DNA from: Candidatus Gastranaerophilales bacterium
Lineage (GTDB): Bacteria; Cyanobacteriota; Vampirovibrionia; Gastranaerophilales; Gastranaerophilaceae
DNA length: 64,000 nt
NCBI GenBank assembly: GCA_944322945.1
Contig: CALUQN010000005.1
Span: 1 to 64,000 of the forward strand
Direction: 5' to 3'
The notes beneath the pieces were generated by a model. That model was given only the letters and a program-made list of their open reading frames with translations, did not search any database and was not told the origin of the DNA. This document shows, in pieces, positions 6,124 through 61,243 of this stretch (position 1 is the stretch's first letter; each line of letters opens with the position of its first letter). The translations under genes were made by a program, and so were the position numbers.

Positions 6124-6140
6124 AGAAAGAAGGTAGAAAA

Positions 6141-6851: not shown

Positions 6852-6864
6852 GGATTAAATAATA

Positions 6865-7179: not shown

Positions 7180-7181
7180 TT

Positions 7182-7796: not shown

Positions 7797-7844
7797 ATTC
7801 CCGTTCAGCTACGTATTTGCTATGGCTGTAAAAAAGATTGCCGG

Positions 7845-8408: not shown

Positions 8409-8414
8409 ATCTGT

Positions 8415-8442
8415 ATTTTAATGTTAATTATTGCAAAATCAA
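8415..8442 (-). promoter_or_regulatory. Promoter of the secreted-protein gene, leaderless arrangement
   Basis: On the minus strand: TTGATT (8442-8437), 16 bp, TAAAAT (8420-8415). The ATG (first base 8408) lies only 6 bp beyond the -10 box, so little or no 5' leader is possible. Confidence 0.5.
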
Positions 8443-8510
8443 TCGTTTATAAACGTGATTTTTATGTTAAAATTGTGATAAACTATTTTTGTAAAAGGAG
8501 TATAAACAAT

Positions 8511-11326
<2,816 letters not shown>

Positions 11327-11340
11327 TTAGAAGGTAAAAT

Positions 11341-11790: not shown

Positions 11791-11800
11791 AGGAGATTGT

Positions 11801-12544: not shown

Positions 12545-12570
12545 CACAAAAATATAAACATCTTATAATG

Positions 12571-12598
12571 GAGCCGGAGTTCAGTCCGGCTCTTTTTG
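12571..12598 (+). terminator. Terminator after the SIMPL gene
   Basis: GAGCCGGA, loop GTTCAG-type, TCCGGCTC, then TTTTTGT; a strong stem followed by a T-run about 30 bp after the stop codon. Confidence 0.85.
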
Positions 12599-12638
12599 TA
12601 CGTTTGATGTAAAGTTTTGTTAATATCGTATATACTAC

Positions 12639-12667
12639 TTTACAAACCCCGAAAACACATATATAAT
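12639..12667 (+). promoter_or_regulatory. Promoter with a long leader before 12784
   Basis: TTTACA (12639-12644), 17 bp, TATAAT (12662-12667). The leader of about 110 nt contains two copies of TGTGGGTTAA(A)GAATA (about 12675 and 12751). Between them lies a hairpin with arms GCAAAA/TTTTGC (about 12712-12718), flanked by AGG/CCT and followed by TTTAATAT. The repeated motif and hairpin could serve regulation; this is not proven. Confidence 0.55.
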
Positions 12668-12783
12668 AAGGCATGTGGGTTAAAGAATAGAAAAGACAGG
12701 TAGCAAAAAATATTTTGCACTTGCCTTTAATATAACATACCAAAAATTACTGTGGGTTAAGAATAAGTAAAGGAGACGGAATT

Positions 12784-13839: not shown

Positions 13840-13931
13840 TGTAAAGAATTGTAAATAATTTAGTGCACTGCGCAATTATCCGTTTTGCGATGTTTTTCAT
13901 GAGATATAAGCACGAACCACGAGAGTATTGT

Positions 13932-16900
13932 ATGACTACTTCGGAATCAATATCATCAAATATAAATTTTCATGCGATGTTAAATCCAACATCGTCACAG
14001 ACAGTGACGACGTCTTCTAATACACCTAATTCTGTCGTAAATGACCCTAAAAAGGAACCAAAGAAGAAATTAACACCGGAAGAAGAAGCATACATTATCT
14101 CAAAAGGTTTAGATCCGAATAATTTATCGAGTGTAGAGTTAGCAGAATGCTTAAATGACTTTTACAGTGCAAAGAATACACCTGCAGAAGACGGACAATC
14201 ACAGTCAGCACCGGTCAATACACAAACCGGTACAACTACTGTGGCATCCAAACAAACGCAGACTGCACCTTCAACAGAAACACCTGCGCAGCCGCCTGTC
14301 GCTGCGTCTGATAAAGCAACTGTAACAGCGCAAACACAATCTCAATCAACTGAAATAAAGTCTGATTTTAAGAGTGTAGGGTTTAGCCAATTTTCAACAT
14401 ATGATCCCGAAAACAAAGTACTTGACTGTGATTTTGGCATTGAAGGAACTTTGACAAAAGAAGAGCAGGCCGGATATTTTGTTAAATCCCTGGCAAAATA
14501 TGAATACGCAAAGTCCAAATGGGACAGCATGACAACCGAAGAACAGGATGCTTTTCTTGCAAGTCTCGGGCACGAACGTTCACATTACATAACAAATGGT
14601 GAAAATGTTGATGAAGCCTTTATGCTTGGAAATATTCTGCCAAAGCTCGGTGCTAAAGAATGGGAAAAACTTACACCGGAAGAACAGTCAGCACGTATCA
14701 ATGGCGTAGAGGCGAAGCTTACAGAAGAAGTTCCATCCTGGGAGAAATTACAATCTACAGATAAAATTATGTTAGCACGGGCTTTTATGATTGCAAGTCC
14801 GTACTCTGAATTGCGTAAAGAGGCTGAAGACGCAGGTGCTAACTTCAATCAACAATTGGAAACTGTAATTTCTAAAGTTATTGAAAGACGTGAAAATATT
14901 TATAACAAGTTTGAACAAATTAAAGAACTTGATAACAATGTTTTGGACTATTTGAAAAAAACAGAGGGGTTCAGTGGCGATGATCTTTCTATGTACAAAA
15001 ACGGTGAAGAAACTGATATCGTAAGATTCAATTACCTAAACGATAAAATTCAGAAAAATAATGGCGATATAAGCTGCCTGAATGAGACGGAACTTCAATT
15101 ATATAATGACTATAAATCTCTTAAAGAAAAAGGCTGGGATTTACATTTAGGTAACTATTCCCAGGATAAAGCAAATTCGACATTTAAGAAAATGTCAAAG
15201 GATGCTACTTTTCAGGAAGTTTTTAAAGATTACATCTCTAATAATTTAGTTACACTTGAGGACGAAAAAGAAGTTTATAAAGAAGCTGTTACTGAAGCTA
15301 CTTATGCCTATGTCAAAAAAGATTTGGGTATAACGATTAAAGACGGCAAATTTTATGATGTCGCATCAGGAAAAGAATTAAGCAAAGATGAAGTTGGCAA
15401 GATTGGTACGGCTAAATTCAAAAAATGGCTGGATAATTGTGATGCATTTTATGAAAAGAAATTATTATTTGATGTTGCGTACAAATTGCAGGAAGAATAT
15501 CCTGAAATTGGCGACATAGCAAAAATGTACGATTTCGCATCTGCTAAAACAAAAACAATTGCAGCCGGTGAAAGCAAGGATGCAGAACGTGAATTAAGCA
15601 TTGTATTAGAAATGAAAGAATTCAAACATCCTGACCATCCGCAAAGTCTGGAAATTGGTAAAGTTGCCGCACATGTACTCTCAAGACCGGATATATTGGG
15701 AGAACTTCAAAAAACAACCATTGCTAAAGAACTTTTGCAAATTGGTAGTCCTGAAGTTGGGGAAGCATATTTTCAGGCTTCTGAAAAAGGTACTTATAGC
15801 GCGGATGAACAGAGTGAAGTCGGCACTGCTGTATTTGAAAATAAAGACAGTGAATATTCTGAGGCAACTCAAGTTCAATTTGCAAGCAACACTCACCGTA
15901 TGGCTAAATCAATCCGTCGTGACATGCATGATAAAGCTAACGCCACAGGCAATGTTAATGTTATGAAGGCAGGTATTGATAATATCCATAAGCATGATGC
16001 TGATGACCAAAGCTACTTATTTGAAAGTTCACATGCTGCAAGTGCTAAAATGGCAAAAGAAGATGCCATCTACCTTGAAACAGCATTGGCAGATCAAGTT
16101 CCGTTATTACATGCGGATAATCAACTGCATGCTCACGAAACATTAATGACATCCCAGTATGACGAAGTTTTGGAATATGTAACCAAAAACATTGTTAACT
16201 ACGATTCGTCTGTACAGGCTGAAGCACTCCAGATGTCAATTGATACAGGTAATACTAAAGCTATTGAAGCTGCTGCCAGTGTTGCATCTGAAATTGCGGC
16301 AAATGCTGAGGCTACAAATTCATCATCAAGCGTTCAAAGCGACCCTGCGCTCCAACAGGTTATCGCACAGATTGAAGCAAAATATAACCAGCAGGTTGTC
16401 AATGCAATTGTTGAAGCTGTAATAGAAAATAATGTTGATGCAAGCAACCCGGATGTCGCTAATATGTCACCGGAAGAACGCCGCCAATATTATTCTGATA
16501 AATTTAACAATGTAAAAGATTTAAGCGCTTTTATTGACAGGCTTCCGGATTCAACCAAAAAAGAAGCTTATATCAAAATTGCTATGTACTGCCCAAATCT
16601 GTTAAAAACTATCGCAGCAACACACGGTTCCGCTATCTTGAAAATTCCGGGACTTCCGCTCCAGGTAATCAATATCGTTGCAATAGCAATGCTTAATTCA
16701 GGCGGTGAAGCAAAAAAAGAAGGCGCTAAGTTTATTCTTAAATCAAACTTCTTCTCAGCTAATATTGAAAAAGTAGCAAGAGAAACTCTCTACGGCGAAG
16801 AAAAACCTGAACAAACCGCACAAAGCGGGAGTGAAGACTCCCCTGCAACAGAGCAGATGTATGCTACAATGCCGCAGATTATTTCAAACAGATTTATGAA

Positions 16901-17088: not shown

Positions 17089-20000
17089 TTATAAATCAGC
17101 GAGAACTCTGTCGAGGCAGGCTTTTTGAGAATACTGCCATTCGCGGAATGTAATACGGTTAACTTTAAATCCGCAGCGTTCAAGAATTGCCTGTTTTTTC
17201 ATATTAGAAACATGGTGGTGGGTTTTGACGTTATCTTCAAGACCGTCTACTTCTATAATGATTTTTTTATCAACAAGTAAGTCTGCACTCAAATCAGCAA
17301 TTTCTACACCTGCCTGAACTTCATGCCCGAGTTCTCTTATTTGTGAGGCTATTTCACGTTCAAGCGGATTTTTATAAATATTTTCGTCTATCTGATTATT
17401 TTGAAGCGCCTGTTGTTTATTCTCATATTCTGCAAGATAATTCATGTAATTCCTGAAATGACCGTCCGGCAAATCTTTTGGATTTCTGGAAATAAAGTTA
17501 ATCATCTTGGAGCAGGCTCTTGTGATAGCAACGTTAAAGAGGTTTGGTTTTTGCAAAAAGGTCAGGCTCTGGGTGTAACTGTTGTTTGCAAAAGCCCACG
17601 AAATCAGCATAATATCACGTTCATCACCCTGAAAAGTATGTGCTGTTCCGATTTCTATTCGATGTTTTCTTATCATGTGGTCTGACAGAACTTTTGATAC
17701 AGAAGTTTTCAGCTGTTCAACCTGTGCTCTAAACGGTGAAATTATACCTATGGAAACAGGGTTATCAGGATTTTTGCGCTCATCTTCTATAACTATTTCG
17801 TGTAGTTTTTTGACGACGGCTTCTACTTCCGGAATATTTCTTGTTGCATCAAAGTCGACTTTGCCATCCGGAACTTCAATAAGTTCAAGCACCTTGTCCC
17901 CTGCAAAATCTTTTTTCATAACTCTTATTCTGCCGCCGTAAAATTCTTCGTTTGAAAAATCAATAATAGGCGGAAGACTTCTGAAATGTTCGTCAAGCAT
18001 TACCGAATTCATTGAATAATAGTCCGCAAGATCAAACATGGAATTTGTTCTGAATCGCCACATTAACTGGTATTTATCAGGAATTCCATATTGTGAAAGG
18101 AAAGATTGTTCTTTTGCTTTTTCAAGGAAAGAAAGATGCGGAAGCTGCTTGTCATCACCTACAATTACGGCACGTTTTGCGCGGAAAAGTATAGGGAAAC
18201 AGCTTGCAATATCGCATTGGGAAGCTTCATCTATGATTGCAACGTCAAACATTCCGGGTTTTAGCGGAAGAGAATCCGATACCGCATAAGTTGTGACGCA
18301 CCAGCACGGGAATGCCTCTAAAAGCGGTTTAAAGTCTTCACCCTCCAGTATATTTGTCTGGAGGCGTTTTCTGCGTTCAACGAGAGAACGGGCATGGACT
18401 TTAAGACGCTGGCATTTTACTGCATCGCGCAGAAGACCCCTGATTGATTCGCGGCGCTGATGTTTCAGAATATTTATCGCTAAGGTTTTTTGTTTCTTTT
18501 TCATCTGGCGGATTTGTTCTGAGAGAACGTGTAAATTTCCGGTGTTCTGGATTTCCGCTTCAATTCTGCGGAGTCTTGAAACATAGCCGGCGACTTCAAG
18601 TTCTGATTTCAGCCGCCCGAGGTTTTCGTAATTCACGTCAAAATGTTTAAGTTTCAGAATATTTTTAATGGTTTTAACACTTGTGAAGTTCGCTATATTT
18701 GTGAAAAATCCTGATTTTTCAATGTTTTTTTCCAAAGTGCCGAGCGCAAGCGTAATGGCATCAATCTCGGATTTTTTCAGTGTTGTTTTGATAAACTGCA
18801 TTTTGCCGTTGGCTTTTTCCTGCTCTTCGGTTTCGACTGACAAATCGTGCCAGTCTTTTTCCAGTTTGATAATCTGTTCGCACTTGTTTTCCATACCTTT
18901 CAGCATATCAAGGTGTTTTTTCATATCGTCAACATTTGCAAACATTGTATCTTCCGCATCGCTGTCAACGTCAACTTTTCCTGCCAAAAGGTCATTCAGC
19001 TGATAGCTCAATTGTTTTTGGTAATTCAATCTGCCTGCACGCAGTGCAAGGTAAGGTGCACCCAAATCATTCAGTCTGTCCGCAACAACATCAACAGCTT
19101 TGTCCATACGGGAAGCCACAAGGACTGTTTTGCCGTTTGCAATCAGGTGGGCTACAAGGTTCACTATTGTTTGGGATTTTCCGGTGCCGGGCGGGCCTTG
19201 TACTGCAATCAGCTTGCTGTATTCAATGTTTTTGATAACTTTTTCCTGCGAATCACTCAAAGAAAGCGGGGTTATCGGATAAAAATCCTTTATATCCTTA
19301 ATATTTTGGAGCGGCACGGATTTTTCCTTTGACTGTGCGTACTCGTCGTTAATCACGCTGAGGGCTGTTTCTCTGTAAATCCCGCTCGGTTTTTCCGCTA
19401 TCTGGGTCAGTTCGTGCAAAACTCCTGCCGTCACGGACGGGCGTTTTGTCAGAATGATTGCGCACTGGTTTGTCACGGAAACTTTTTCCAGTTTTACCTG
19501 CGGTTTTGAGTTAGCTTCCTCTTCTTCAATGATATCTTCAACGTTTTCGCCGTCAACTTTGTAGAAATCCTTTGTGTGAGATGTTTCTTTTGAAATATTA
19601 TCTTCTTCAACGTCATCCTGGTGGTCAAAGCTTATCTCGACGTCCGGAATAACCGACTTCAGGGTTGTCAGAAAAATTTCAAGCTTTTCGTTTGTGAGCG
19701 GCAAATCCGGCACAACATCTAAAATCCCTTCCAAAAGCAGGTCAACTTCATCCTCATCATCATTTTTTTTCATTAATGCCGCAAGCGCGCCTGTGTTGAG
19801 AGAAAGCATTTCATCCTGCGGAATACAGTTGATATTAACCCCGTTACGCTCAAGTTTGCACGGCATATACAAAAGCGGGGTCAGAAATTCGTTTGCCTTT
19901 TTGGATTTTGAACTTTTCCCGACAAGAAAAAGATAGCCGTAAATCAGGTATTTATCTTTTGAACCTAATTCGGATTGTATCATAAGTTCAGTGAGCTTGG

Positions 20001-20217
20001 GGTCGCTTCCGTCAAGTTTTAGATAATCATCATAGTGTGTAAATAACTGCTCTTCCCCTTTCAGAAAAATCCATTTGTTGTCTTTATCCCCTTTAAGGTT
20101 TCTGAAAGTTGAGCTTTTTACTTCTTCACGTACGCAATCATGGAGGTACTGGCTTAACTTTTTGATAAAACTGTTATTAAATGCCGAATTGATGGCTCTC
20201 GTTGCTTCCTGTAACAT
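17089..20217 (-). CDS. SF1 helicase fused to a C-terminal DUF559-type nuclease
   Basis: A 1042-residue protein. The N-terminal 300 residues carry no recognised motif and include an acidic linker. The P-loop GPPGTGKS is at 341-348, the Walker B region IIDEASQCD near 660, then GDDKQLP, HTFQGDERD and AITRA, all motifs of the UPF1/DNA2-like (COG1112, AAA_11/AAA_12) SF1 helicases. The last 100 residues contain ADLLVDKKIIIEVDG, the active-site pattern of DUF559/Vsr-like PD-(D/E)XK nucleases. A ribosome binding site GAGGGA lies close to the ATG. The gene sits in a core region and may act in repair or defence. A second protein of the same design is at 52072. Confidence 0.85.
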   Translation of the reverse strand: MLQEATRAINSAFNNSFIKKLSQYLHDCVREEVKSSTFRNLKGDKDNKWIFLKGEEQLFTHYDDYLKLDGSDPKLTELMIQSELGSKDKYLIYGYLFLVGKSSKSKKANEFLTPLLYMPCKLERNGVNINCIPQDEMLSLNTGALAALMKKNDDEDEVDLLLEGILDVVPDLPLTNEKLEIFLTTLKSVIPDVEISFDHQDDVEEDNISKETSHTKDFYKVDGENVEDIIEEEEANSKPQVKLEKVSVTNQCAIILTKRPSVTAGVLHELTQIAEKPSGIYRETALSVINDEYAQSKEKSVPLQNIKDIKDFYPITPLSLSDSQEKVIKNIEYSKLIAVQGPPGTGKSQTIVNLVAHLIANGKTVLVASRMDKAVDVVADRLNDLGAPYLALRAGRLNYQKQLSYQLNDLLAGKVDVDSDAEDTMFANVDDMKKHLDMLKGMENKCEQIIKLEKDWHDLSVETEEQEKANGKMQFIKTTLKKSEIDAITLALGTLEKNIEKSGFFTNIANFTSVKTIKNILKLKHFDVNYENLGRLKSELEVAGYVSRLRRIEAEIQNTGNLHVLSEQIRQMKKKQKTLAINILKHQRRESIRGLLRDAVKCQRLKVHARSLVERRKRLQTNILEGEDFKPLLEAFPCWCVTTYAVSDSLPLKPGMFDVAIIDEASQCDIASCFPILFRAKRAVIVGDDKQLPHLSFLEKAKEQSFLSQYGIPDKYQLMWRFRTNSMFDLADYYSMNSVMLDEHFRSLPPIIDFSNEEFYGGRIRVMKKDFAGDKVLELIEVPDGKVDFDATRNIPEVEAVVKKLHEIVIEDERKNPDNPVSIGIISPFRAQVEQLKTSVSKVLSDHMIRKHRIEIGTAHTFQGDERDIMLISWAFANNSYTQSLTFLQKPNLFNVAITRACSKMINFISRNPKDLPDGHFRNYMNYLAEYENKQQALQNNQIDENIYKNPLEREIASQIRELGHEVQAGVEIADLSADLLVDKKIIIEVDGLEDNVKTHHHVSNMKKQAILERCGFKVNRITFREWQYSQKACLDRVLADL

Positions 20218-37046: not shown

Positions 37047-37137
37047 GGAGGAGTGCCAGAGCGGTTTATCGGAGCGGTCTTGAAAACCGTCGTACGTGAC
37101 GAGCGTACCGTGGGTTCGAATCCCACCTCCTCCTCCA
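37047..37137 (+). tRNA. tRNA-Ser(UGA)
   Basis: 91 nt with class II structure. Acceptor GGAGGAG (37047-37053) pairs with CTCCTCC (37127-37133); T8 is in place. The anticodon stem GCGGT/ACCGT carries the loop CTTGAAA, so the anticodon is TGA (reads UCA). The long variable arm GTACG/CGTAC and the T arm GTGGG-TTCGAAT-CCCAC are complete. Position 73 is T, followed by an encoded CCA. The last 20 bp before the discriminator are the integration site of the element to the right. Confidence 0.93.
37114..37133 (+). other. attL core inside tRNA-Ser
   Basis: GTTCGAATCCCACCTCCTCC, identical over 20 bp to 48471-48490. It covers the T arm and acceptor 3' strand, a usual integration site for tyrosine integrases. 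Confidence 0.85.
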
Positions 37138-44312: not shown

Positions 44313-45686
44313 ATGGCATTTTACGAAAAAATTTCAGATTATACATATAGATTGACAGTTTGTCAGGGGTACGACTCCAAAGGCAAAAAATTACGCAAAA
44401 GAAAAACAATTAAATTAGACGAAACATTAACCGCAAAGCAGGCTGAAAAAGAGCTTAACCGTCAAATGGTGATGTTTGAAAACGAAGTCTTGAACGGAGT
44501 TTACTTAGACGGCGAAAAAATCACATTTGAAGCCTTTACACAAAGGTGGTTAGAAGATTACGCAGAAAAACATCTGACACTTACAACATTACAATCGTAT
44601 AAAATCATGCTTAAACGGATTTTGCCTGCTATCGGACACATTAAACTCGGTAAATTACAGCCTCATCACTTGATACAGTTTTACAACAATCTTGATGAAG
44701 CAGGAGTGAGATTAGACGGTAGGTTTACTCCTACCAAAGCCCTGATAAAATATCTCGAGCCTTTGACAATTTCTCATATAATCAAAACTACAGGCATATC
44801 GTCTAAAACTTGCAGAAGGTTAAAGACAGGCATGGCAACAAATTACAGTACCGCTCAAAAGCTCTGTAATTGCTATAAATTAGATTTCAACAGAATGTTC
44901 AAGGGTAATTCAGAAAAGAAACTGAATAGAAAAACAATCAAAAATCATCATATTGTAATTCATTCAATACTTTCAACTGCTGTTGATTTGAATATCCTAA
45001 TGAATAATCCTGCGGAAAGAGCAAAACCGCAAAAAGTAACAAAGTCACATGCTAGATATTACAATGATGAACAAGTGGCAGATATGCTCAACTGCTTGAA
45101 AAGTGAACCATTAATGTATATGACAATGATTTATCTTGCTATTGATATTGGTTTAAGAGAGGGTGAGCTAACTGGCTTGAAGTGGGAAGATATAAATTTT
45201 GACACCTGTGAAATTAACATCAACAAACAACGGCATTATATTACAGGCTACGGCAATATTGAAGGCAGACCGAAAACCGATGCCGGTATTAGAACCGTTA
45301 CAGCCTCAAAAACTGTAATATCACTCTTGAAAGAATACAAAAAGCAACAGAACGAAAACAGACTTAAATTCGGCACAGCTTGGAAAAACGGTCAATATGT
45401 ATTCCTGCATGAGGACGGCAGTCCGATAGGCACACAGTTGCCATATAAGTGGTTTACAAAATTCTTAAACCGCCATAACTTACCGAAAATAACATTCCAC
45501 CAACTCCGCCACACAAACGCAAGCCTGCTAATTTCATCAGGTGAGGACATTGTAACCGTAAGCGGTCGCCTCGGACACGCTGACAAAAATGTAACCCTGA
45601 ACACTTACTCTCACATAATTAAATCAAAAGAAGCACAGGTCGCTAATAAAATGGATGAGTTTTATGCAAATTTGAAAATATTTTAA
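44313..45686 (+). CDS. int: Tyrosine recombinase (integrase)
   Basis: 457 residues. The catalytic set is present: Arg in GLREGELTGL, HQLRHTNA (His and Arg), GHADKNVT and the Tyr in LNTYSH. An N-terminal arm-binding domain and a core-binding SAM-like domain come first. Residues about 145-205 insert an extra helix-turn-helix-like segment (ISSKTCRRLKTGMATNYSTAQKL) in the core-binding part, an arrangement also seen in integrases of clostridial elements. It lies at the right end of the element. AGAAGG precedes the ATG. Confidence 0.9.
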   Translation: MAFYEKISDYTYRLTVCQGYDSKGKKLRKRKTIKLDETLTAKQAEKELNRQMVMFENEVLNGVYLDGEKITFEAFTQRWLEDYAEKHLTLTTLQSYKIMLKRILPAIGHIKLGKLQPHHLIQFYNNLDEAGVRLDGRFTPTKALIKYLEPLTISHIIKTTGISSKTCRRLKTGMATNYSTAQKLCNCYKLDFNRMFKGNSEKKLNRKTIKNHHIVIHSILSTAVDLNILMNNPAERAKPQKVTKSHARYYNDEQVADMLNCLKSEPLMYMTMIYLAIDIGLREGELTGLKWEDINFDTCEININKQRHYITGYGNIEGRPKTDAGIRTVTASKTVISLLKEYKKQQNENRLKFGTAWKNGQYVFLHEDGSPIGTQLPYKWFTKFLNRHNLPKITFHQLRHTNASLLISSGEDIVTVSGRLGHADKNVTLNTYSHIIKSKEAQVANKMDEFYANLKIF

Positions 45687-45740: not shown

Positions 45741-47534
45741 ATGTGCAATACTATAATTAAAACATTAAATGAATTTTATAACTATGTTGATGCAAATGTA
45801 TTTAAACATACAGATGCTTTAAATCTTAAAATTGATATTGACAAATTGGGAGAAGTAGAAAAACATCAAGTTCAATTAATAGTTGATTGTCTTAAATACA
45901 CAATTCAAGCTGGTAAATTAAGACCATTTTTTACCGATGCAAACGGAAATACTTATCCTGATATTAAAAATTTAACAGATAATGATGTCAGCTATTTATT
46001 AAATTATTTAAATGTATCTCAAAATCTTTATATAAAGTCGAAAATTAATCATTTTTTGTTTATAAAGGCAAAGTGTAAAAATAAAATAAGTTTTGCAAAT
46101 ACTGCAATAGATGCATACTTTGAACTTTTTAATCAGTATTTAATTAATGAATATGATACTTGGTTAGAATTATCATATATCTTTAAAAATCTTACAGATT
46201 TAGTTTTTAAGGCTAGCTATAAAATCAACGAATTGAAACAATTATCAATAAATATTGTAAAAACATCTAATAAAAATGTTTTAATTAGAGAGGCTATAGA
46301 ATTTTTAATCGAAAAAGTTAAGAAGAAAAAATTTGATAAATCCGTTTTAAAAGGATTTATAAATATTTGTAAAACAAAAATTAAAAATTCTGGAGATAAT
46401 ATAAATTGGGCTGAAGGTTTTATTGAATTAGGTAGAAAAATTAGTCGGATAAAAAAGGGTAGTCTACGCCAATGGGATTTATTGCAGGCAAAAGCTTATG
46501 AAAAAGAGATGAAAAAAGCTCAACAATTAAATAATAATGGTATTGTTGCTGCTTCTTGGTGTAAGGATGCTATCACATATTACAAAAAGGCAAAAAATAA
46601 AAATAAAGCTGATAAATTGTTTAAAAAATATGGTGATTTATGTAGAACTGTACAATATGCAACAATAGATTGTCCACCTTATGATTTACAAGCTGATATT
46701 GATAAATTAAAATCATTTATTGATGAATCGAACAATTTAGATGTTCTTTATGAAATAATTTATGATTTTATTCCAAAATATGAAAATAATAAAAAGACTG
46801 CTCAAAATATTCTTGCAAAGTCCTCATTAACTAATTTTTGTTCCAGTGTATACACAGATATCTATGGACAGGTTGTAGGATACTCAAGTACAGATGAAGA
46901 GAATTTTAAACATGAGCTATGGAATGTATACAAAGTAAGTTTTAATTTTAGTTCAATTTTATTATTTCATTATATACAATACGCATTAAAAACAAATAAA
47001 CTTAATGCAGGCTTGTTAATAGAATATTTAAAGACAACTTGGTTAGGTAGTCTTATTAGAAAGACATTACCTGAAAATCAAATTCTCTCATATCAGTGGT
47101 TAGAACATATTGAACAACCTATCATTAGTTATTTTAGCAAACAACAAAAATATTTATATGATAACAATTTCAGATTAACTTTTATAAATGAAGTTGATAG
47201 TTTAACTTTAAAAATAGAAGGAATTTTAAGAGATTTAGTTGAATTCGCACATATAGAAGGCTTTTCTGTTAGAAAATTTGTAAATGATAAAGAGGAACGT
47301 CAGATTTCAAACTGGAAGAGTATTAATGAATTACTATGGGATTGCAATATTTTAAAGATTTTAAATGAAGATGATGTCTGGTTTATGAGATATTTTTTAA
47401 CTGACTACTTAGATGTTCGAAATAATATTGCCCATTGTTTAATTTTGAATCCTTATCAGGAACAATATTACTACGGTTTTCAATGGTTATTAATTATCAT
47501 ATTAAGATTGTCAAAGTATCTAAAATTAAAGTAA
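45741..47534 (+). CDS. DUF4209/HEPN-like protein, candidate defence effector
   Basis: 597 residues. The C-terminal part carries LDVRNNIAHCLILN (R560, H565), an R-x4-H motif as in HEPN ribonucleases and in DUF4209 (RNxxxH), followed by a helical segment. The long N-terminal part is helical with no known motif, and several Lys/Asn-rich stretches. AT-rich codon use differs from the core genes. It follows the integrase by 54 bp and sits in the right border zone where satellites carry cargo. A role as an RNA-cleaving abortive-infection protein is inferred from motif and place only. Confidence 0.6.
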   Translation: MCNTIIKTLNEFYNYVDANVFKHTDALNLKIDIDKLGEVEKHQVQLIVDCLKYTIQAGKLRPFFTDANGNTYPDIKNLTDNDVSYLLNYLNVSQNLYIKSKINHFLFIKAKCKNKISFANTAIDAYFELFNQYLINEYDTWLELSYIFKNLTDLVFKASYKINELKQLSINIVKTSNKNVLIREAIEFLIEKVKKKKFDKSVLKGFINICKTKIKNSGDNINWAEGFIELGRKISRIKKGSLRQWDLLQAKAYEKEMKKAQQLNNNGIVAASWCKDAITYYKKAKNKNKADKLFKKYGDLCRTVQYATIDCPPYDLQADIDKLKSFIDESNNLDVLYEIIYDFIPKYENNKKTAQNILAKSSLTNFCSSVYTDIYGQVVGYSSTDEENFKHELWNVYKVSFNFSSILLFHYIQYALKTNKLNAGLLIEYLKTTWLGSLIRKTLPENQILSYQWLEHIEQPIISYFSKQQKYLYDNNFRLTFINEVDSLTLKIEGILRDLVEFAHIEGFSVRKFVNDKEERQISNWKSINELLWDCNILKILNEDDVWFMRYFLTDYLDVRNNIAHCLILNPYQEQYYYGFQWLLIIILRLSKYLKLK

Positions 47535-48470: not shown

Positions 48471-48490
48471 GTTCGAATCCCACCTCCTCC
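48471..48490 (+). other. attR core
   Basis: GTTCGAATCCCACCTCCTCC, identical to the tRNA-Ser end at 37114-37133. It is followed by TAATAAAA rather than CCA. Confidence 0.85.
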
Positions 48491-48493
48491 TAA

Positions 48494-52071: not shown

Positions 52072-55000
52072 ATGGTTGGAACTTCTGATACTAGAGAGAA
52101 AGTTAGTCTATTATATCAATATATAAAACAATTCTGTATGCTTCGTAATAAGGTTATTACAGATATACGTAATCAAAAAGAATTTTTCTATTTTGATGAT
52201 TTTCCAAATGCTCCTGAGTTTATTACTATTAATTATAGAGATCGACTTGAAAATATTTCAGAAGAAGAAATTTATAAAAATCCGATATTGACAATAAAAA
52301 AGCCCGAATTTCAGGTTTGTCCAAAACCACCATCTGAATTAATAGAATATTTAGATCCTGGCTGGGAACAGTATATTAATGATGCTATATTAAATGAAAA
52401 ATTTAAAAATTTAGATACTACAATTTCTAATCTTATTTTAAATTCTTTTAATAAGTGGTCTGTAATTCGTAAAACTTGGGTAGAAAAACAAAAACTTATA
52501 AAAAAGGTTAGAGATTTATTCAATAAATTACGAAATATAGCAGATGATTTGAAAAAAGAAGATGACACCCTTGAATTAGTTGTTGGAAATGGAATTTTAA
52601 CTAAAAATAATGACAAAAATATTAACCACCCGGTATTATTAAAACGCGTAAATATTATATATGATGCAAAAACAAATTCTATTTCTATTATAGATGTTGA
52701 TAAAGATAGTGAGTTATACTTAGATTTATTGCGTACGGTTGATGGAATAAATATAGATGAAATAAGAGGATTACAGGAGGATGTAAAGAATAATTTTTAT
52801 CATCCTCTAGATAGAAATGATACACGTGATTTTTTTAAAATTTTAATTCACAAACTTCATAATAATGGTATATATGATGATGGTAATGAAATAAGTTATA
52901 TGCCAAATGAAGAGGTCATGCTTATCAGCTTTAAACCTGTTCTTATATTACGGAAAAGAAATGACGGAACATTAAAAGCCTTAGATTCTATTATTGAGGA
53001 TATTGAAACAGAAAATAAAATACCTCCTTATCTTATAGACTTAACTAATGGTGGTAAAATAGATATTCCGGAAGATAATCAGATACAATCAATAGACAGA
53101 CAGTTGGCTGCAACCAGTGGAGAAGATGTAGATATATTGTTACCGCTTGAAGCAAATAAAGAACAATTAGAAATAGCACAAAGAATAGAGAAATTCAATG
53201 CCGTTATTGTACAGGGACCTCCGGGAACAGGAAAAAGTCATAGTATTGCAAATATTCTTTCTCATTTTTTGGCACAAGGTAAAAATGTATTAATTACAAG
53301 TTATACAAAGAAAGCTCTATCTGTTTTAAAAGATAAAATCCCAAAAGAACTTCAAAGTTTGTGTGTTTCACTATTAGACGACTCAAATAATGATATGGAA
53401 CGTTCTATAGACGGCATTGCTAATTATTTATCAAAATATACATCAAGGGAACTTTTAGAAAGAGCAAAACAATTAGAAAATGAGCGTAATTCAATAATAA
53501 AAAATTTGGCAGATTTAAGAAAAGAAATATTTGTTCTTCGTAATAAAGAAATACAAAAAATTGTATATGATGGAAAAGGTTATTCTGTCATAGATGTTGC
53601 AGATTTTGTAAGAACAAATGAAAAATCATTAGCAACAATTATTCCGGGAGATGTTAAATCAGGTCTTGAATTTCCTCTAACAGATGAAGAGTTAAATAAA
53701 CTCTACATAAGTAATGTTGAATTGACAAAACAGGATGAATGTGAAATAGGTTATAATTTACCAAATCCAAATGATTTGCTGTCACCATCAAAGTTCAATG
53801 AATTAAAAATAAAATATGACAATATTTTTCAAAAAATTAAGACTACTGAAAATCAATTATCTATAAAGTTAAAAGTTGAATCTAATAAAATAATTTTGAT
53901 TGACCAAGACTCGGATGTGGTGTTAATAAATAACGTACCTGAACAGAATCTTAAAACTTTAGTTAGTTTTATAAAAAAGCAGGGGAAATTAGATAAATGG
54001 GGTATTCAAGCTGTAAGTGACGGATTGTCACATAACCGTGAAAGGTGGTTACTTTTAGTAAAGAAAATAGAAGAAACCATAGCTTTTGCTCAAAAAAATT
54101 CTCTTCAAGGTTTTGGGAAACAGGTAAATGTTGACAAAACTTTGGATGCAGATACAATATTACCAATTTTAGAAGAGTTAAAAGAACTTTTATTAAAGAA
54201 AAAGAAACTCTCTAATCTAGATTATTTATTTCACTCTGATTTTAAAATGCTTATGCAGAAAATTACTATAAATGGAAAGTCTATAAAAAATTCAGAAGAT
54301 TGTTCTATTGTTATAAATAAACTTAAATTAGATAAAATGAGAAAAGATTTAAGTATCTATTGGGACTTACTGCTTGCAACTAACGGGCAAAAACGATTTA
54401 TTGAATTGGGTGAAGAACCTGAAATTACGGCACAAAAATATATTCCCAAAATTAAATATTATCTTGACTGGTATAACAATGACTACAAAAAACTAAAGAC
54501 ATATTTAGAGCAGTCCGGTTTTAACTATCAAAACATGATTCAAGTTGACGATTTAACTTCAAACAAAGAACAAATAAATCAAGTCATTGATTTTATGTTT
54601 AACAAATTACCCCAATATATTAATTTAGCGATTTGTCTCAATAATCTTAAACCGATAAAAGAGCTTCAACACAAATGTATATCTTTATTATCTGATAACA
54701 ATCGTAATAAATCTGTAATATGTTCTAACTTAATTAAATCTATAAAATCTTTAGATTGTGAAAAATATAGCCAAAATTATTTTGCACTTTCTACTTTGTA
54801 TAAAAAAAATGAATTAGCAAAGACTCGACAAAATATACTTCAAAGATTAGAGCAAGTAGCTCCATTATGGGCATCCGAAATTAAAAATAGAAGAGGAATT
54901 CATGGAGAAAATAAATATCCAACACAAATAAAAAATGCCTGGAGATGGAAGCAATTTAATATGATTATTGAAAATATAACCTGTGAATCTTTGGATGAAA

Positions 55001-56592
55001 AATTAAAAAAAACATCTGAATTAAGCAAATATTTAAAACAAAAAACTACACAACTGGCTGAATGTAAAGCCTGGTATCATTTATTAAAACGAAGTGAAGC
55101 CGATTTAGACTTAAGGCAGGCTTTGGAAGGTTGGCAAGGAAGTGTTAATCAAATTGGTTATGGTAAAGGGAAAAATGTAAAACAATCAAGGCAAGAAGCT
55201 AGAAATAAAATGAAACAATGTCAGGCAGCTGTTCCTGCATGGATTATGGATATTAATACAGCATTAGAAAATTTCACCCCAGGAAAAAATTTATTTGACG
55301 TTATTATAATAGATGAAGCTAGTCAAGCTGATATTAGAGCTTTGTCTATTTGCTATATGGGTAAAAAATTAATAATTGTCGGTGATAATAAACAGGTTAG
55401 CCCTTCTTCTATTGGTATTGAAGTCGATCAAACTAACAATTTGTTAACAACATATTTAAAAGGTAAAATTCCTAACTGGGACTTATACAATCAGGTATCA
55501 TCTTTGTATGATATTGCAAAAACAACTTTCCAACCTTTAATGTTGAGGGAACATTTTAGGTGCGTGCCGGATATTATTGGTTATAGCAATAAGTTGTCGT
55601 ATAATTTTAAAATAAAACCATTAAGAGAAGCAGGAAGCTCTAATATTTTACCTGCCGTTATTAATTATAGAGTTGATGGAGGATCAAGAAAACAAAATTC
55701 TAAAACGAATGAAGCAGAAGCTGAAGCAATTGTTAGTTTAATCCAGGCTTGTATTGAACAGCCCGAATATAAAAATAAAACTTTTGGTGTTATTTCTTTA
55801 TTAGGAGATGAACAGGCATTATTAATTCAATCGAAAATTCACAGTATGATAGATATTTCGGAATATGAAAACAGGAAAATCTTGTGCGGTAATGCATCTA
55901 ATTTTCAGGGCGATGAGCGGGATGTAATTTTTCTATCAATGGTCGATAGTAATGAAGATAATGTGCCTTTAAACTTAAAAAGGGATGGGCGTAACGACTC
56001 AACTAAACAGCGCTACAATGTAGCTGCTAGTCGTGCAAGAGATCAAATGTGGATTATTCATTCATTAGATAAAGACCGAGATTTAAAAGACGGTGATATA
56101 AGAAAAGGTTTACTGGAATATTCTTTAAACCCCAATTCATATAACTATTTAGTTGAACAAGCTAAAATTAAATCAGATTCTCCTTTTGAACAAGAGGTAT
56201 ATGAGTATTTAATTGCAAGAGATTACAATATAATTCAACAATGGCCGATTAACAGGTGGCGAATTGATATGGTAGCACAATATAATGGACATAAGATAGC
56301 TATAGAATGTGATGGTAAACGTTTTCACAGTGGTGAAGAAAAAATATGTGAAGATATGGAGCGTCAAACTATATTAGAACGTATTGGCTGGAAATTTATA
56401 AGAATTAGAGGAAGTGAATATTACAGAAATAAAACCAAAACAATGGAATCCGTAATTGTACAATTAACAAATTTGGGTATTCAACCTGAAAAAATTATCA
56501 ATATTGATGATAACGGACATCAGACATCAGCACTTTTAGATAGAGTTAAAACACGTGCTTCACAAATAAGAAATGACAAAGTCTATAATTAA
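52072..56592 (+). CDS. Giant SF1 helicase with C-terminal DUF559-type nuclease
   Basis: 1506 residues. P-loop VQGPPGTGKSH at about residues 380-389, Walker B IIDEASQAD near 1080, GDNKQVSP, NFQGDERDV and AASRAR identify the same UPF1/DNA2-like SF1 type as the protein at 17089. A long helical insert (about residues 440-1050) separates the first and second helicase parts. The C-terminal 150 residues hold RIDMVAQYNGHKIAIECDGKRFHS, the DUF559/Vsr-like nuclease pattern (D, then ExD/K-type residues). Position between a mobile remnant and a restriction system fits a defence gene; the activity is inferred. Confidence 0.8.
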   Translation: MVGTSDTREKVSLLYQYIKQFCMLRNKVITDIRNQKEFFYFDDFPNAPEFITINYRDRLENISEEEIYKNPILTIKKPEFQVCPKPPSELIEYLDPGWEQYINDAILNEKFKNLDTTISNLILNSFNKWSVIRKTWVEKQKLIKKVRDLFNKLRNIADDLKKEDDTLELVVGNGILTKNNDKNINHPVLLKRVNIIYDAKTNSISIIDVDKDSELYLDLLRTVDGINIDEIRGLQEDVKNNFYHPLDRNDTRDFFKILIHKLHNNGIYDDGNEISYMPNEEVMLISFKPVLILRKRNDGTLKALDSIIEDIETENKIPPYLIDLTNGGKIDIPEDNQIQSIDRQLAATSGEDVDILLPLEANKEQLEIAQRIEKFNAVIVQGPPGTGKSHSIANILSHFLAQGKNVLITSYTKKALSVLKDKIPKELQSLCVSLLDDSNNDMERSIDGIANYLSKYTSRELLERAKQLENERNSIIKNLADLRKEIFVLRNKEIQKIVYDGKGYSVIDVADFVRTNEKSLATIIPGDVKSGLEFPLTDEELNKLYISNVELTKQDECEIGYNLPNPNDLLSPSKFNELKIKYDNIFQKIKTTENQLSIKLKVESNKIILIDQDSDVVLINNVPEQNLKTLVSFIKKQGKLDKWGIQAVSDGLSHNRERWLLLVKKIEETIAFAQKNSLQGFGKQVNVDKTLDADTILPILEELKELLLKKKKLSNLDYLFHSDFKMLMQKITINGKSIKNSEDCSIVINKLKLDKMRKDLSIYWDLLLATNGQKRFIELGEEPEITAQKYIPKIKYYLDWYNNDYKKLKTYLEQSGFNYQNMIQVDDLTSNKEQINQVIDFMFNKLPQYINLAICLNNLKPIKELQHKCISLLSDNNRNKSVICSNLIKSIKSLDCEKYSQNYFALSTLYKKNELAKTRQNILQRLEQVAPLWASEIKNRRGIHGENKYPTQIKNAWRWKQFNMIIENITCESLDEKLKKTSELSKYLKQKTTQLAECKAWYHLLKRSEADLDLRQALEGWQGSVNQIGYGKGKNVKQSRQEARNKMKQCQAAVPAWIMDINTALENFTPGKNLFDVIIIDEASQADIRALSICYMGKKLIIVGDNKQVSPSSIGIEVDQTNNLLTTYLKGKIPNWDLYNQVSSLYDIAKTTFQPLMLREHFRCVPDIIGYSNKLSYNFKIKPLREAGSSNILPAVINYRVDGGSRKQNSKTNEAEAEAIVSLIQACIEQPEYKNKTFGVISLLGDEQALLIQSKIHSMIDISEYENRKILCGNASNFQGDERDVIFLSMVDSNEDNVPLNLKRDGRNDSTKQRYNVAASRARDQMWIIHSLDKDRDLKDGDIRKGLLEYSLNPNSYNYLVEQAKIKSDSPFEQEVYEYLIARDYNIIQQWPINRWRIDMVAQYNGHKIAIECDGKRFHSGEEKICEDMERQTILERIGWKFIRIRGSEYYRNKTKTMESVIVQLTNLGIQPEKIINIDDNGHQTSALLDRVKTRASQIRNDKVYN

Positions 56593-56602: not shown

Positions 56603-57554
56603 TCATTTTAAGAACTCTTGCTCTGTTAACAATTTTATATTTTCTTTAGCAATCATATCCGCAAGTTCTTCTTCTGTTGGGAGAACTGTTTTATACTTGC
56701 TTGCAAAAATCTGTTGGCTTTCTTGTAACACAGAATATTTGACCATAGTTTCGGATTTATCCGTACAAAAAATTATGCCGATAGTCGGGTTGTCGTCCGC
56801 ACCACGCTTTAATTCATCAAACATTCTGACATACATATCCATCTGCCCTATATCTGCGTGGGATAACTTTGTTGTCTTCAAATCGATAACCACAAAGCAT
56901 TTTAACAGATAATTGTAAAACACCAGATCCGCATAGAAATGGTCAGTTTCCGTACTGATTCTAAATTGGCGGGCAACAAAAGAAAATCCTTTGCCAAGTT
57001 CAAGTAAAAACTTCTGTAAATTATTGATTAAAGCTGATTCTAAAGCACTTTCTTTGCCTTCAATATTTTCAGGCAAATCCAAAAATTCCAAGACATACGG
57101 ATCTTTGATGAATTCTTTTGTATCAATAACGGCAGGCAAACATTTTTCAGTGTTATTTACTCCTGCTTGAGTTGATAAAAGCCTGTGATAATAACCGCTT
57201 TTGATATTGCGGGTTATCAATCCTTATAATCCTTGCTATATTGGACCAACTCAAATTTCCTAGACACTGTCTGGGAAATTCAGGATAAACTAAATAAAAA
57301 TTCCTCATATTCTGCAAATTTGCTTCCGAAAATCCTTTACCGAAAGTATCGGTGAGGTATCTTGACAAATTTTCGATAAGTTTAGTTCCATATTCCGCAC
57401 GGGAAGCACCGCCCTGCTCTTCTTCTACAATACGCTGCCCAATTTTCCAGTATGTTTCAACCATAATGGAATTCACTGTATGATACGCCTTTGCCCGTGC
57501 TAAGTTCAGTAACTCTGCTATATCTGTATATATCTTTGAAATTTCTTGTGACAT
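56603..57554 (-). pseudogene. Broken DUF1016 (YhcG-type) nuclease gene
   Basis: Two pieces of one gene. The N-terminal DUF1016_N part (57554 to about 57180) runs to LSWSNIARIIRI, then continues out of frame and stops at 57153. The C-terminal PD-(D/E)XK part starts in another frame near 57220 with RNIKSGYYHRLLS and holds the active site ADLVFYN..VVIDLKT. Family members have about 20 residues between these points that are missing here, so a small deletion plus frameshift probably disabled it. Both pieces look free of other stops. Confidence 0.7.
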
Positions 57555-57665: not shown

Positions 57666-59786
57666 TTAAACAGTAATTTTTTCGCCTTTTCCCTCCGGAA
57701 TTAAATTATGATAACGCATCCAAACAAGTAAATCTAGTAAATCATTCTTATTGTATCTTGCTTTACGATTAGACCATACATAAAAACCTTTTATTATTGT
57801 TTCGTCAGAACATTCTTTGTTATCAATTAATAAATTATTCCAAACAGCATATAAAGTGGCAACAGGTTCAGCTTTGCTTAAATTTTGACCTGTAAATAAA
57901 TTTAAAACTCTGTCAATTTCTTGGCTTTTATTAGAAAAACATTTGTTATATAAATCATTATATTCACATAGATTATCTAAAGGAATGTATTGTTCTTTTT
58001 GTCCAGAATCACCTTCAATAACATCAAACCAGTTTAATTCTTTGAAAATTTTCTTTACTTCATTTCTTGCTTTTTTATCCAGAGGTCCTGCTGCAGCCTT
58101 TTTATATTTCCCTTCAAGTGGCAATTCCAAGACTTTTTCGGTTATAAAAATTAACTTTTCATCTGATATAGCAGAGAACATATTGTTATTATTAAATTTT
58201 TCAATGATTTTCGCATTTAGTATAGCTCTTTTGTTGATAGCTTTTGTAATATCAACCTTATTATTTTTAGAATTAATTTCAGTATCTTTAGACTCTCTAA
58301 TTTTAATAATATTAGATGGTACTTCCTCCAATTTATCGGCATATTTCATTAATTCGTCGACTTTGGCGACAATTCGCATTTGTTCTGCGAGTGGAGGGAG
58401 TGGGATTAAATAATTTGCAATATAATCTTTACCAATCCTTTGTTGTCCTGCTGTTCCTGTAAAATTTTTAATTCCATTTTTTATAAATAATTCAGTCTTA
58501 AATATCAATAATAAGTATTTTTTAATTAAAATATTTGTATCTTCTCGTATGACATGTAATTCTGTGGTGCCTGCACCTATATTATTAGGTAAATTTTTAA
58601 TTATTGCAGATTTTCGATTTTGAAAACAAGGTGTTATTTTAGCTATTACAATATCACCATTTTTAAAATGTGTAAAACCTTTTTTTATATCCTTCCATTT
58701 TTTTATTTCAAAAGAATGTTCATTATTGTAACCATCTTTTAAGTGGGACATTGGAATAAAACCTGCATTGATATCATCATCCGCTATATTCCGTGGATTT
58801 AATGAACAAAAATCTCCCAATCTCGTCCACACCCAACCTTGTGGAAGTTCGTATGGGATTTCGTCTTGGGTAATTGGCGGGAGTGGTTTTTCTTTTTTGA
58901 TTTTGCCGTCTTTTATAAGACGTTCTTTTTCTGCCTTAATATGTTTTAAAAGTTCTGTTGCGGGTTCGTCTTGTGGGTTTTGTTTAACGAGTTTACCCTG
59001 TACTGCGTATTGCAAAATAGATTGGCGGATTTGTTTCGGCAATTTTTGATTCATTTCGGACAAAATTTCTTCATTCCTGCCATACTCCTCAGCCAAAGGC
59101 AAAATTTCTTCCAATTTTTCTACAATTCTCTTTTGTTCTGCTAGTGGAGGGATTGGGATTAGAAAATGTTTAATAGTTGCTATTGAAATATTGTCATTTG
59201 TAGAGTTTTTACTTTCCGTAATCACTTGTTGAATTAGAGGCGACAATATTGAATAATTTATATAATCTTCTATAACGCCTAATATTTTAATAGTTCCCAC
59301 TCGTTGATTAGTTACCATTGGTTCTGCAAGTTTTTTTATAAATAAACTTTTACCAACAGTTCCTCCCGTCATACATAAAATTATATTTTTTTCTTCCAAT
59401 AGATAGTCATCTAATTTGCTATTGTAGTCATATCTTACAATAGTATTATTAACAAAACCTAATTCATTAAAATCAGAAATTCTAACTACTCTTATGCCTA
59501 TATTTTTATAATCTGAACTTTTGAAAGCGTATCCCCCGTTAACCAATGAAATATTTCCTAGTCTCACCCATTCCCAGCCCTGCGGAAGTTCATAAGGGAT
59601 TTCATCCCGTGTAATTGGCGGGAGCGGCTTTTCTTTTTTTATTTTTCCTTCTTTTATAAGACGCTCTTTTTCTGCTTTTATACGTTTCAATAATTCTGAT
59701 GCAGGTTCATCTGTAGGGTCTTGAGCTACAAGCTTCCCTTCCATGGCATATTGTAATATTGATTTTTTTAAATCCTGAGCCTTCAT
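57666..59786 (-). CDS. hsdS: Type I restriction-modification specificity subunit, long form
   Basis: Recognises the DNA target of the type I system. 706 residues, against 400-450 usual. Two repeated units start at about residues 8 and 254 (ILQYAMEGKLV and ILQYAVQGKLV), each followed by IKAEKERLIK and IPYELPQGW, the conserved regions between two target-recognition domains. The last 190 residues are extra and contain GPLDKKARNEVKKIFKELNWFDV and VATLYAVWNNLLI, a tail also seen in other long HsdS proteins, of unknown role. The start overlaps the end of hsdM by one base. Confidence 0.88.
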   Translation of the reverse strand: MKAQDLKKSILQYAMEGKLVAQDPTDEPASELLKRIKAEKERLIKEGKIKKEKPLPPITRDEIPYELPQGWEWVRLGNISLVNGGYAFKSSDYKNIGIRVVRISDFNELGFVNNTIVRYDYNSKLDDYLLEEKNIILCMTGGTVGKSLFIKKLAEPMVTNQRVGTIKILGVIEDYINYSILSPLIQQVITESKNSTNDNISIATIKHFLIPIPPLAEQKRIVEKLEEILPLAEEYGRNEEILSEMNQKLPKQIRQSILQYAVQGKLVKQNPQDEPATELLKHIKAEKERLIKDGKIKKEKPLPPITQDEIPYELPQGWVWTRLGDFCSLNPRNIADDDINAGFIPMSHLKDGYNNEHSFEIKKWKDIKKGFTHFKNGDIVIAKITPCFQNRKSAIIKNLPNNIGAGTTELHVIREDTNILIKKYLLLIFKTELFIKNGIKNFTGTAGQQRIGKDYIANYLIPLPPLAEQMRIVAKVDELMKYADKLEEVPSNIIKIRESKDTEINSKNNKVDITKAINKRAILNAKIIEKFNNNNMFSAISDEKLIFITEKVLELPLEGKYKKAAAGPLDKKARNEVKKIFKELNWFDVIEGDSGQKEQYIPLDNLCEYNDLYNKCFSNKSQEIDRVLNLFTGQNLSKAEPVATLYAVWNNLLIDNKECSDETIIKGFYVWSNRKARYNKNDLLDLLVWMRYHNLIPEGKGEKITV
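58815..59031 (-). repeat. Internal repeat of hsdS, second copy
   Basis: DNA-level repeat with 59556-59769 (about 215 bp, the conserved parts of the two recognition domains). Such repeats allow recombination between the halves of hsdS and so a change of specificity. Confidence 0.65.
59556..59769 (-). repeat. Internal repeat of hsdS, first copy
   Basis: First copy of the repeat at 58815-59031; both code for ILQYAxxGKLV, IKAEKERLIK and IPYELPQGW. Confidence 0.65.
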
Positions 59787-61243
59787 TAATTTCCTGCTCC
59801 AATCAAAGACTTAATCTTGCTCAAAATTTCATCAATATTTTTATCAACTTCTTTTCTTTTTTCCTGATATTTCTGTATCAATTCCATAGGCGGCAAAACT
59901 TCTTCCTCTTCATAAGGATATCCGCACAAATCAAGGTTGTAATTTCTTTCTTTAATTTCTTGAATTGTATATTTTTTAGCCTTATCAAAGCCGTCAATAT
60001 TTATTTCCTGCCGATTATTCCACCATTCATCAACGGGGTTAAGGTGTTCCCGTTTCATCGGTTTTGTTTTGCTAAAATTCTTATACCCTTCCGGCATGTC
60101 GAGCCTGTAAAACCACGTTTCTAATGTCGGTTCGCCTTTAGTAAAAAACAGCAAATTGGTATTTATTGACGTATAAGGAGAAAAAACACTCTTAGGAAGT
60201 CTTATAACAGTGTGCAAATTACATTCTTGCATAAGTTTTTCTTTTATTCTTGTTTTTACTCCTTCTCCAAACAAAGCACCGTCAGGCAAAACAATGCCTG
60301 CTCTGCCGTTGACTTTCAATTTTGCCATAATATAAATCAGAAAAAGGTCTGCTGTTTCTTTTGTTCTGTATGCAGCAGGAAAATTCGTTTCAATCCCGTC
60401 TTCTTCAATTCCGCCGAATGGTGGATTTGTAACAATACAATCAACTCTATCTGCAGGTGAAATATTATTAATCGGTTTTGATAAGGTATTATCCCTTTTA
60501 ATATTTATAGGAGTATCAATTCCGTGCAAAATCATATTTGTTGTGCATAATTGGTGCGGAAGCGGTTTCTTTTCTATTCCAAATATGGAATTATTTAAAA
60601 TTTCGCCTTCTCTTGTCGTATCGGTTTGTTTTTTCAAGTGTTCAATCGCACAGGTCAAAAATCCGCCCGTACCGCAAGCAGGGTCAAGAACTTTTTCACC
60701 TAATTGCGGGTTAACCATATCAACGATAAACTGGGTTACAGCTCTTGGAGTATAATATTCCCCCGCATTACCTGCAGATTGAAGACTTTGCAAAAGCTGC
60801 TCATAAATATCATTAAAAAGATGTCTATCCTCACTTGAGTTAAAGTCAATTTCATTGATTTTATTGATAACTTGCCTTAATAGTGTACCTGATTTCATGT
60901 AGTTATAAGTATCTTGAAAAATATTTCTTATAATCAATGCTTGTTGGTTAGAATCATTTTCCAAATTTTGTAAATACGGAAACAAGTCATTATTTATAAA
61001 GTCAATGAGTTCATCTCCTGTCATACCTTCATCATCTTGAGCCCAGTTTTGCCAGCGGTATTTTTCATCAAGCGGAGATTTGTAATCATCTTTCATAACC
61101 TCTGCTTCATCTTCTTTATCGGCAAAGATTTTTAAAAACAGCATCCATACTATCTGAGAAAGCCTTTGTGCATCTCCGTCAACACCGGTATCCTTTCTCA
61201 TTATGTCCTGTATAGCTTTTATTACACTTGATATATTTGGCAT
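59786..61243 (-). CDS. hsdM: Type I restriction-modification methyltransferase subunit
   Basis: 485 residues. N-terminal HsdM_N region (VWMLFLKIFADKEDEAEV), then the N6-adenine methyltransferase domain: GEYYTPRAVTQFIVDMVNP, LDPACGTGGFLT (AdoMet motif) and NPPFGG (catalytic NPPF). Methylates adenines in the target together with HsdS. It overlaps hsdS by one base and lies 11 bp from the membrane protein gene upstream. Confidence 0.95.
   Translation of the reverse strand: MPNISSVIKAIQDIMRKDTGVDGDAQRLSQIVWMLFLKIFADKEDEAEVMKDDYKSPLDEKYRWQNWAQDDEGMTGDELIDFINNDLFPYLQNLENDSNQQALIIRNIFQDTYNYMKSGTLLRQVINKINEIDFNSSEDRHLFNDIYEQLLQSLQSAGNAGEYYTPRAVTQFIVDMVNPQLGEKVLDPACGTGGFLTCAIEHLKKQTDTTREGEILNNSIFGIEKKPLPHQLCTTNMILHGIDTPINIKRDNTLSKPINNISPADRVDCIVTNPPFGGIEEDGIETNFPAAYRTKETADLFLIYIMAKLKVNGRAGIVLPDGALFGEGVKTRIKEKLMQECNLHTVIRLPKSVFSPYTSINTNLLFFTKGEPTLETWFYRLDMPEGYKNFSKTKPMKREHLNPVDEWWNNRQEINIDGFDKAKKYTIQEIKERNYNLDLCGYPYEEEEVLPPMELIQKYQEKRKEVDKNIDEILSKIKSLIGAGN

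Follow-up and report, generated by a model that had tools for sequence, protein, structure and literature searches.

Hhe (NCBIfam NF042953, a DUF4011 anti-phage protein) joins a helicase core to a nuclease on its C-terminal side and is reported from experiments to be anti-phage; in our own analysis, only NCBI's names say so. The PDC-S37 (PADLOC PDLC05009), ProA (NCBIfam NF058533) and DUF3320-MTES_1575 proteins, with which Hhe groups in one clade, combine an Upf1-like superfamily 1 (SF1) helicase with a nuclease of the MTES_1575 type. CnuH of the CoCoNuT systems, for which RNA is the predicted target, is described as Upf1-like, with a large helical or coiled-coil insertion after Walker A and, in type III-B, a fused Vsr-like nuclease (PMC11090510). 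Here we describe P1, a protein encoded at 52072-56592 (plus strand) of a 64,000-nucleotide window, the whole stretch of DNA analysed, from a Candidatus Gastranaerophilales bacterium (contig CALUQN010000005.1). P1 is probably a horizontally mobile, single-gene antiviral helicase-nuclease that forms a distant, uncatalogued subfamily of the PDC-S37/ProA/DUF3320/Hhe class. Annotated records name proteins of this type 'AAA domain-containing protein', and in the profile libraries searched, P1 is picked up only by its generic helicase and nuclease domains.

The gene is one uninterrupted open frame that encodes 1506 residues, and both the frame and its Pfam matches agree with the first-pass annotation, which had read SF1 motifs followed by a C-terminal DUF559 nuclease. 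The matches over cut-off are AAA_11, AAA_12 (residues 1153-1329) and MTES_1575 (residues 1372-1464, 1.4e-27); the last, at 96.1 bits against a curated cut-off of 38.2, places P1 in that nuclease family, and DUF559 is a weaker match (2e-06) on the same stretch. The N-terminal region (residues 1-352, 52072-53127) is followed by the first part of RecA1 with the Walker A motif GPPGTGK at residues 382-388 (residues 353-435, 53128-53376), a long helical insert, or arm, within RecA1 (residues 436-1070, 53377-55281), the remaining RecA1 with DEAS as motif II together with RecA2 (residues 1071-1340, 55282-56091), and the MTES_1575/Vsr-like nuclease domain (56185-56463), all on the plus strand. The helicase residues tested across motifs II-VI, including DE of motif II, GD..Q of motif III and the arginines of motifs IV and VI, are kept in 21/21 aligned family sequences, as is the nuclease residue D1399; E1412 and D1414 are kept in 20/21. 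The closest solved relatives in a PDB profile search are Sen1 (2.4e-24) and Upf1 (1.7e-22), with DNA2 also among them. By its AAA_11/AAA_12 matches, motif residues and kinship with Sen1 and Upf1, P1 is an Upf1-like SF1 helicase. A fold search with the model of the N-terminal region (predicted local distance difference test [pLDDT] 78.5, predicted template modelling score [pTM] 0.71) gave no clear match; rank 30 was a Upf1 chain (Z 3.0, root-mean-square deviation 7.6, 147 residues aligned), which only hints at a possible Upf1-type stalk/1B domain there. A 146-bp gap lies upstream of the gene, and promoter-like matches in the stretch were at chance level (39 found, 35.4 expected).

The insert had been placed at about residues 440-1050 and called the most novel part of the protein. 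We found the gap in RecA1 at about residues 436-1070 (635 residues), and the stretch aligned to P1 residues 425-1072 measures 617-651 residues in family members with both ends, a range that leaves out the distant L074 and partial rows. Its AlphaFold2 model (pLDDT 82.4, pTM 0.52) is mostly helical, with two long helices near its two ends, and resembles an SMC-type arm that ends in a helical tip. The best fold-search matches of the model were Rad50 in Foldseek (E 8.3e-3) and JetABC in VIA (Z 9.0, root-mean-square deviation 15.8, 278 residues aligned), among SMC-like arms and other long-helix proteins, and we read them as a generic long-helix likeness. The motif IGKGTGK occurs near the insert end in most members, and P1 of the window has IGYGKGK there. 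Compared subgroup by subgroup, the inserts of the P1 family match one another at a probability of 99.9-100. The PDC-S37/ProA/DUF3320 proteins carry an insert of about 550-575 residues in the same place, and pooled profiles of P1 and of this set gave one continuous alignment over P1 residues 159-1461, covering 537/635 insert residues, 59 of them at confidence ≥7. With block-shuffled insert columns, the alignment ended near the insert end in 12/12 runs and took in at most 31 insert residues; the insert alone reached a probability of 34.3% against this class, compared with a best value of 0.7% among 30 shuffles. Because the continuous pooled alignment outdoes its shuffle controls, the insert probably represents a diverged version of the one found in proteins that NCBI names anti-phage, and shared ancestry with that of the wider class is likely, at low per-residue confidence. 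The idea of an orphan insert, first suggested by the subgroup comparisons, was dropped after the pooled profiles and shuffle controls, and the presence of a distantly homologous insert in proteins named anti-phage weakens the claim of novelty.

P1 is sporadic in its distribution. Its insert was found in 5/386 phylum genomes, four belonging to the window's family and the fifth, from elsewhere, matching weakly and in part, in a scan that used one insert sequence and that distant copies may escape. Full-length relatives occur in Acetoanaerobium (46% identity), Fusobacterium (37%) and on a Fusobacteriota plasmid (36%), and more distant ones in Variovorax, Acinetobacter, Streptomyces and Deinococcus, on chromosomes as well as plasmids. 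Plasmid records match P1 at any level in 475/72,556 cases; among the matches listed, most of those on Klebsiella plasmids are Hhe proteins, matched via the core. Additionally, 14 loci with P1 relatives lie on IMG/VR contigs, where L061-L067 and L070 match most of the query, and a scan of viral contigs with a single sequence found no relative. One family member (L064) carries a GreA_GreB domain fused at its C-terminal end (14105-14320, plus strand); the domain was counted in a second member as well, and a search for it in L035 and L061, whose long tails had been suspected of holding it, found none.

A 1042-residue cousin of the same domain order (P2, Pfam AAA_11, AAA_12 and MTES_1575) does lie at 17089-20217, as the first-pass annotation had reported, on the minus strand, which had gone unstated; we used it for comparison only, outside the proposed defence unit. 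Its RecA1 halves are separated by a spacer of about 260 residues, and neither this spacer nor that of Mokosh aligned with the P1 insert in profile comparison. The cores of P1 and P2 align as profiles at 100% probability, and the P2 family, like that of P1, has intact catalytic residues, with the nuclease D and E-x-D kept in 11/11 sequences; at the position of H1419, histidine stands in 19/21 P1 sequences and in 0/11 P2 sequences. The G+C content is 28.9% for the P1 gene and 40.7% for the P2 gene. At E≤1e-60, P2 was matched in 130/292 phylum genomes, 129 of the window's family and one of its order; one listed family member lacks it, and 142 non-matching genomes lie outside those listed. By this distribution, P2 belongs to the core genes of the bacterial family. 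The conserved region in which it was said to lie amounts to the gene itself and does not extend to its neighbours, of which a poly(A)-polymerase-head gene alone recurs (beside P2 in 4/12 relatives examined).

P1 and P2 lack a common vertical history, because within the genus P2 is 96% identical and P1 only 46-48%. Between genera g1 and g38, P1 copies share 90% identity, compared with 80-81% for the six P2 cousins listed from g38; a 90% identical P1 occurs in a Gastranaerophilales metagenome-assembled genome, in the same DNA as that of genome G424, of another genus. A maximum-likelihood tree of the common core (468 columns, 48 sequences) separates a P1 clade, in which the window's P1 clusters with proteins of other phyla and which has the long-branched outlier X_v073 at its base, a P2 clade, and a third clade holding PDC-S37, ProA, DUF3320, Hhe and a BREX-linked protein; X880_G050 was left out of both trees made, and L044, L040, L069, L072 and the 639-residue piece in L062 were likewise omitted. 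Forcing the four Gastranaerophilales P1 copies together with P2 was rejected (approximately unbiased [AU] test, p=1.46e-6), which rules out a local duplication of P2 into P1. Forcing these copies into one clade was not rejected (p=0.275), and several independent acquisitions by Gastranaerophilales are thus not supported. On this evidence P1 is horizontally mobile with a non-vertical history, and it has only the ancient helicase-nuclease core in common with P2, an outcome close to the two old families that the first-pass annotation had set against its own proposal.

We infer a role in defence largely from the neighbourhood of P1 and the kinship of its insert. A recognised defence gene lies in the fetched stretch at 14/25 P1-family loci, as a raw count without a background rate, and the kinds include type I restriction-modification (RM), BREX, McrBC, Ssp/Pbe, Wadjet, AbiH, AbiE and others. 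The neighbours are type I RM and DUF1016 genes in the window, AbiH (L045), HsdS (L041), Wadjet JetA with DUF4194 (L039), AbiE (L042), an HEC-01A-like ATPase with DUF4276 (L043), a PbeA-like helicase (L040, where the P1 gene itself is cut by an IS701 insertion), type I R with McrBC (L061), SspC and PbeA (L063), a type II methyltransferase (L064), HsdM (L066) and, at L067, an 809-residue gene in the position of the L064 methyltransferase; L067 was counted for this position and for two neighbours that matched type II methyltransferases, and it was not scanned by name. In L036 and L044, which are 97% identical and count as one lineage, P1 follows brxL of a BREX system directly. Locus neighbours were scanned in pooled tallies, and singly for selected proteins only, with several flanks very short on one side; L040 was included, and L070 (protein identical to L063) and L073 and L074 (not of the P1 clade) were dropped. 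A helicase matching GajB and Cas4 models in L046 and a permease-like match to CARF models in L035 were left out as ambiguous. A PC4-type gene for single-stranded DNA binding abuts or overlaps the P1 gene in 3/25 loci (downstream at 16998-17282 in L035 and 14962-15234 in L061, upstream at 7212-7439 in L041). Near the P1 copy of L034, a gene at 12991-15606 (minus strand) codes for a protein of 871 residues that contains an ADP-ribosyltransferase exoenzyme domain.

The P1 copies that follow brxL would allow a direct test of whether SF1 helicase-nucleases are recruited by BREX to do its cutting. The brxL-P1 junction was found at ≥80% cover in 20/72,556 plasmid records, and all 149 plasmid records with any match to it are Acinetobacter. 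On L074, a contig from a virus collection, pglX, pglZ and brxL (979-13813, plus strand, for the whole run) are followed by a 1565-residue helicase-nuclease of the PDC-S37/Hhe clade, which occupies the slot that P1 takes after brxL elsewhere. The main text of a 2026 survey on BREX auxiliary genes has neither 'Vsr' nor 'DUF559', and its one use of 'SF1' is in a reference title (PMC12839542).

Several observations weigh against an antiviral P1. The defence link claimed earlier stands by context, at 14/25 loci, and is limited by the missing background rate; the other 11/25 loci (L034, L035, L037, L038, L046, L062, L065, L068, L069, L071 and L072), some with short flanks, have no counted defence gene. 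In addition, 11/25 loci are IMG/VR fragments, from a collection biased to mobile DNA; the Fusobacterium copy is flanked by CbiJ and cation-efflux genes; and no partner gene is conserved across the P1-family loci. Insert-only comparisons of subgroups with PDC-S37, ProA, DUF3320 and Hhe gave no significant match, and the insert alignment is of low confidence, with means of 2.5 to 3.7 out of 9. The closest solved relatives, Sen1, Upf1 and DNA2, work on RNA or DNA, and the Upf1/Sen1 kinship, the CnuH parallel and the GreA_GreB domain of L064 leave room for RNA or transcription complexes as targets.

As a mechanism, we propose that the invader's nucleic acid, most likely DNA, would be bound at its ends or at single-stranded parts by the SF1B Upf1-like motor, which would then translocate at the cost of ATP; the long helical arm in RecA1 may contact a trigger or partner as a sensor, dock or regulator and control the motor or nuclease, and the Vsr-like domain would cut the strand delivered by the motor. 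DNA appears the likelier target because of the nuclease family, the DNA-targeting neighbours and the PC4-type genes beside three copies. The same neighbourhood is an argument against a P1 that acts on RNA or transcription complexes, as Upf1 and Sen1 do and CnuH is predicted to (PMC11090510), its nuclease destroying viral or host transcripts directly or by abortive infection; the best solved relatives by sequence, the plan common to P1 and CnuH, and the GreA_GreB fusion in L064 speak for this alternative, which we consider unlikely. More specifically, the arm could be a docking device, so that P1 serves either alone or as the cutting effector behind BREX or McrBC, with a PC4-type partner in one branch, an elaboration of the antiviral reading that we regard as rather improbable.

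P1 might instead be an accessory enzyme of DNA repair or replication restart for mobile elements, working on forks or flaps like DNA2 and travelling together with defence genes on islands. The relation of its motor to DNA2, the element-rich setting, the 11/25 loci without recognised defence genes, and P2, a core gene with the same kinds of domain and a sign that such enzymes can be housekeeping, would all suit this role, but sporadic presence, neighbours that are very variable even between 90% identical P1 copies, and the kinship of the insert with proteins named anti-phage make it a doubtful one. Far less credible is a single lineage in which P1 arose from the core P2 by gain of the insert and was then recruited for defence. 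The common domain order and the full-probability core alignment are what such an origin predicts, but the AU test, the separate clades, the relatives of P1 in other phyla and an insert that aligns with another class speak against it, and within Gastranaerophilales it is refuted by the sequence data. The suggestion that an ancestral repair protein was recruited in this chromosome falls with it, on the rejected tree, the 96% versus 46-48% identity and the insert that aligns elsewhere; finding one domain order twice within a genome segment is no evidence of local recruitment. The first-pass annotation was therefore sound in its observation, wrong on origin and probably right on defence.

The mobile remnants and restriction system reported near the gene are present in the window. 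To the left of P1, an element integrated at a tRNA-Ser(TGA) gene (37047-37137, plus strand) is bounded by an attachment-like exact 21-bp direct repeat (37114-37134 and 48471-48491, plus strand) and encodes a tyrosine integrase (44313-45686, plus strand); P1 starts 3.6 kb past the right repeat. To the right, on the opposite strand, P1 adjoins a DUF1016/YhcG (PDC-S02) gene split over two overlapping frames (56603-57554, minus strand), a split that reflects gene breakage or else a fault of the assembly, and beyond it lie the type I RM genes S (57666-59786), M (59786-61243) and R (from 61800 past the window edge at 64000). The element also holds DnaB-like, DUF3987/DUF3854 and uracil-DNA-glycosylase genes, together with a gene at 45741-47534 (plus strand) whose 597-residue product matches DUF7380/DUF4209 weakly and also matches PDC-S39; it may be a second defence gene. 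The G035 contig compared for an empty insertion site is rearranged relative to the window, and the PC4 gene of the window's genome sits on another contig only.

Among known systems, the PDC-S37/ProA/DUF3320 proteins come closest to P1 in helicase, nuclease and placement of the insert, and the profile scores set P1 apart from each of them. Against PDC-S37, P1 scores 189.5 bits (best stretch 932-1347 of 1550), whereas the true members G013 and G074 of the same bacterial family score about 1350 bits; against ProA it scores 199.1 bits (cut-off 1500). P1 falls in a separate clade, and a comparison of the N-terminal regions by themselves detected no likeness. In two Gastranaerophilales genomes, the PDC-S37 helicase-nuclease gene has a further helicase-nuclease gene, of 1012 residues, some 1.2 kb upstream in the same orientation (L051 9415-17978 and L052 9680-18247, minus strand). 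Hhe differs from P1 in its length of 1911 residues and a spacer of about 876 residues; P1 reaches 149.8 bits (cut-off 2000) and has no DUF4011 match. The likeness to type III-B CnuH is drawn from its published description (PMC11090510), and the window genes scanned include no NxD McrB, McrC or Hsp70-like partner of the type III-B operon. The McrBC beside L061 was ruled out as a CoCoNuT by the canonical NxxD motif of its McrB. Mokosh MkoA and MkoC match P1 at 131 and 99 bits through the SF1 helicase core alone, unlike P1 in their spacer of about 210-340 residues, which does not match the insert, and in the phospholipase D (PLD) nuclease that P1 lacks. In the PADLOC scan, the models of Nhi and Hachiman gave no match to P1 at E≤0.01. 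Nhi, as described, nonetheless unites motor and nuclease in one stand-alone protein, as P1 does (PMC12904381), and Hachiman, also a stand-alone system, unites them in one complex (PMC12278908). Beside these systems, P1 would extend the helicase-nuclease defence proteins by a separate branch that has been widely transferred.

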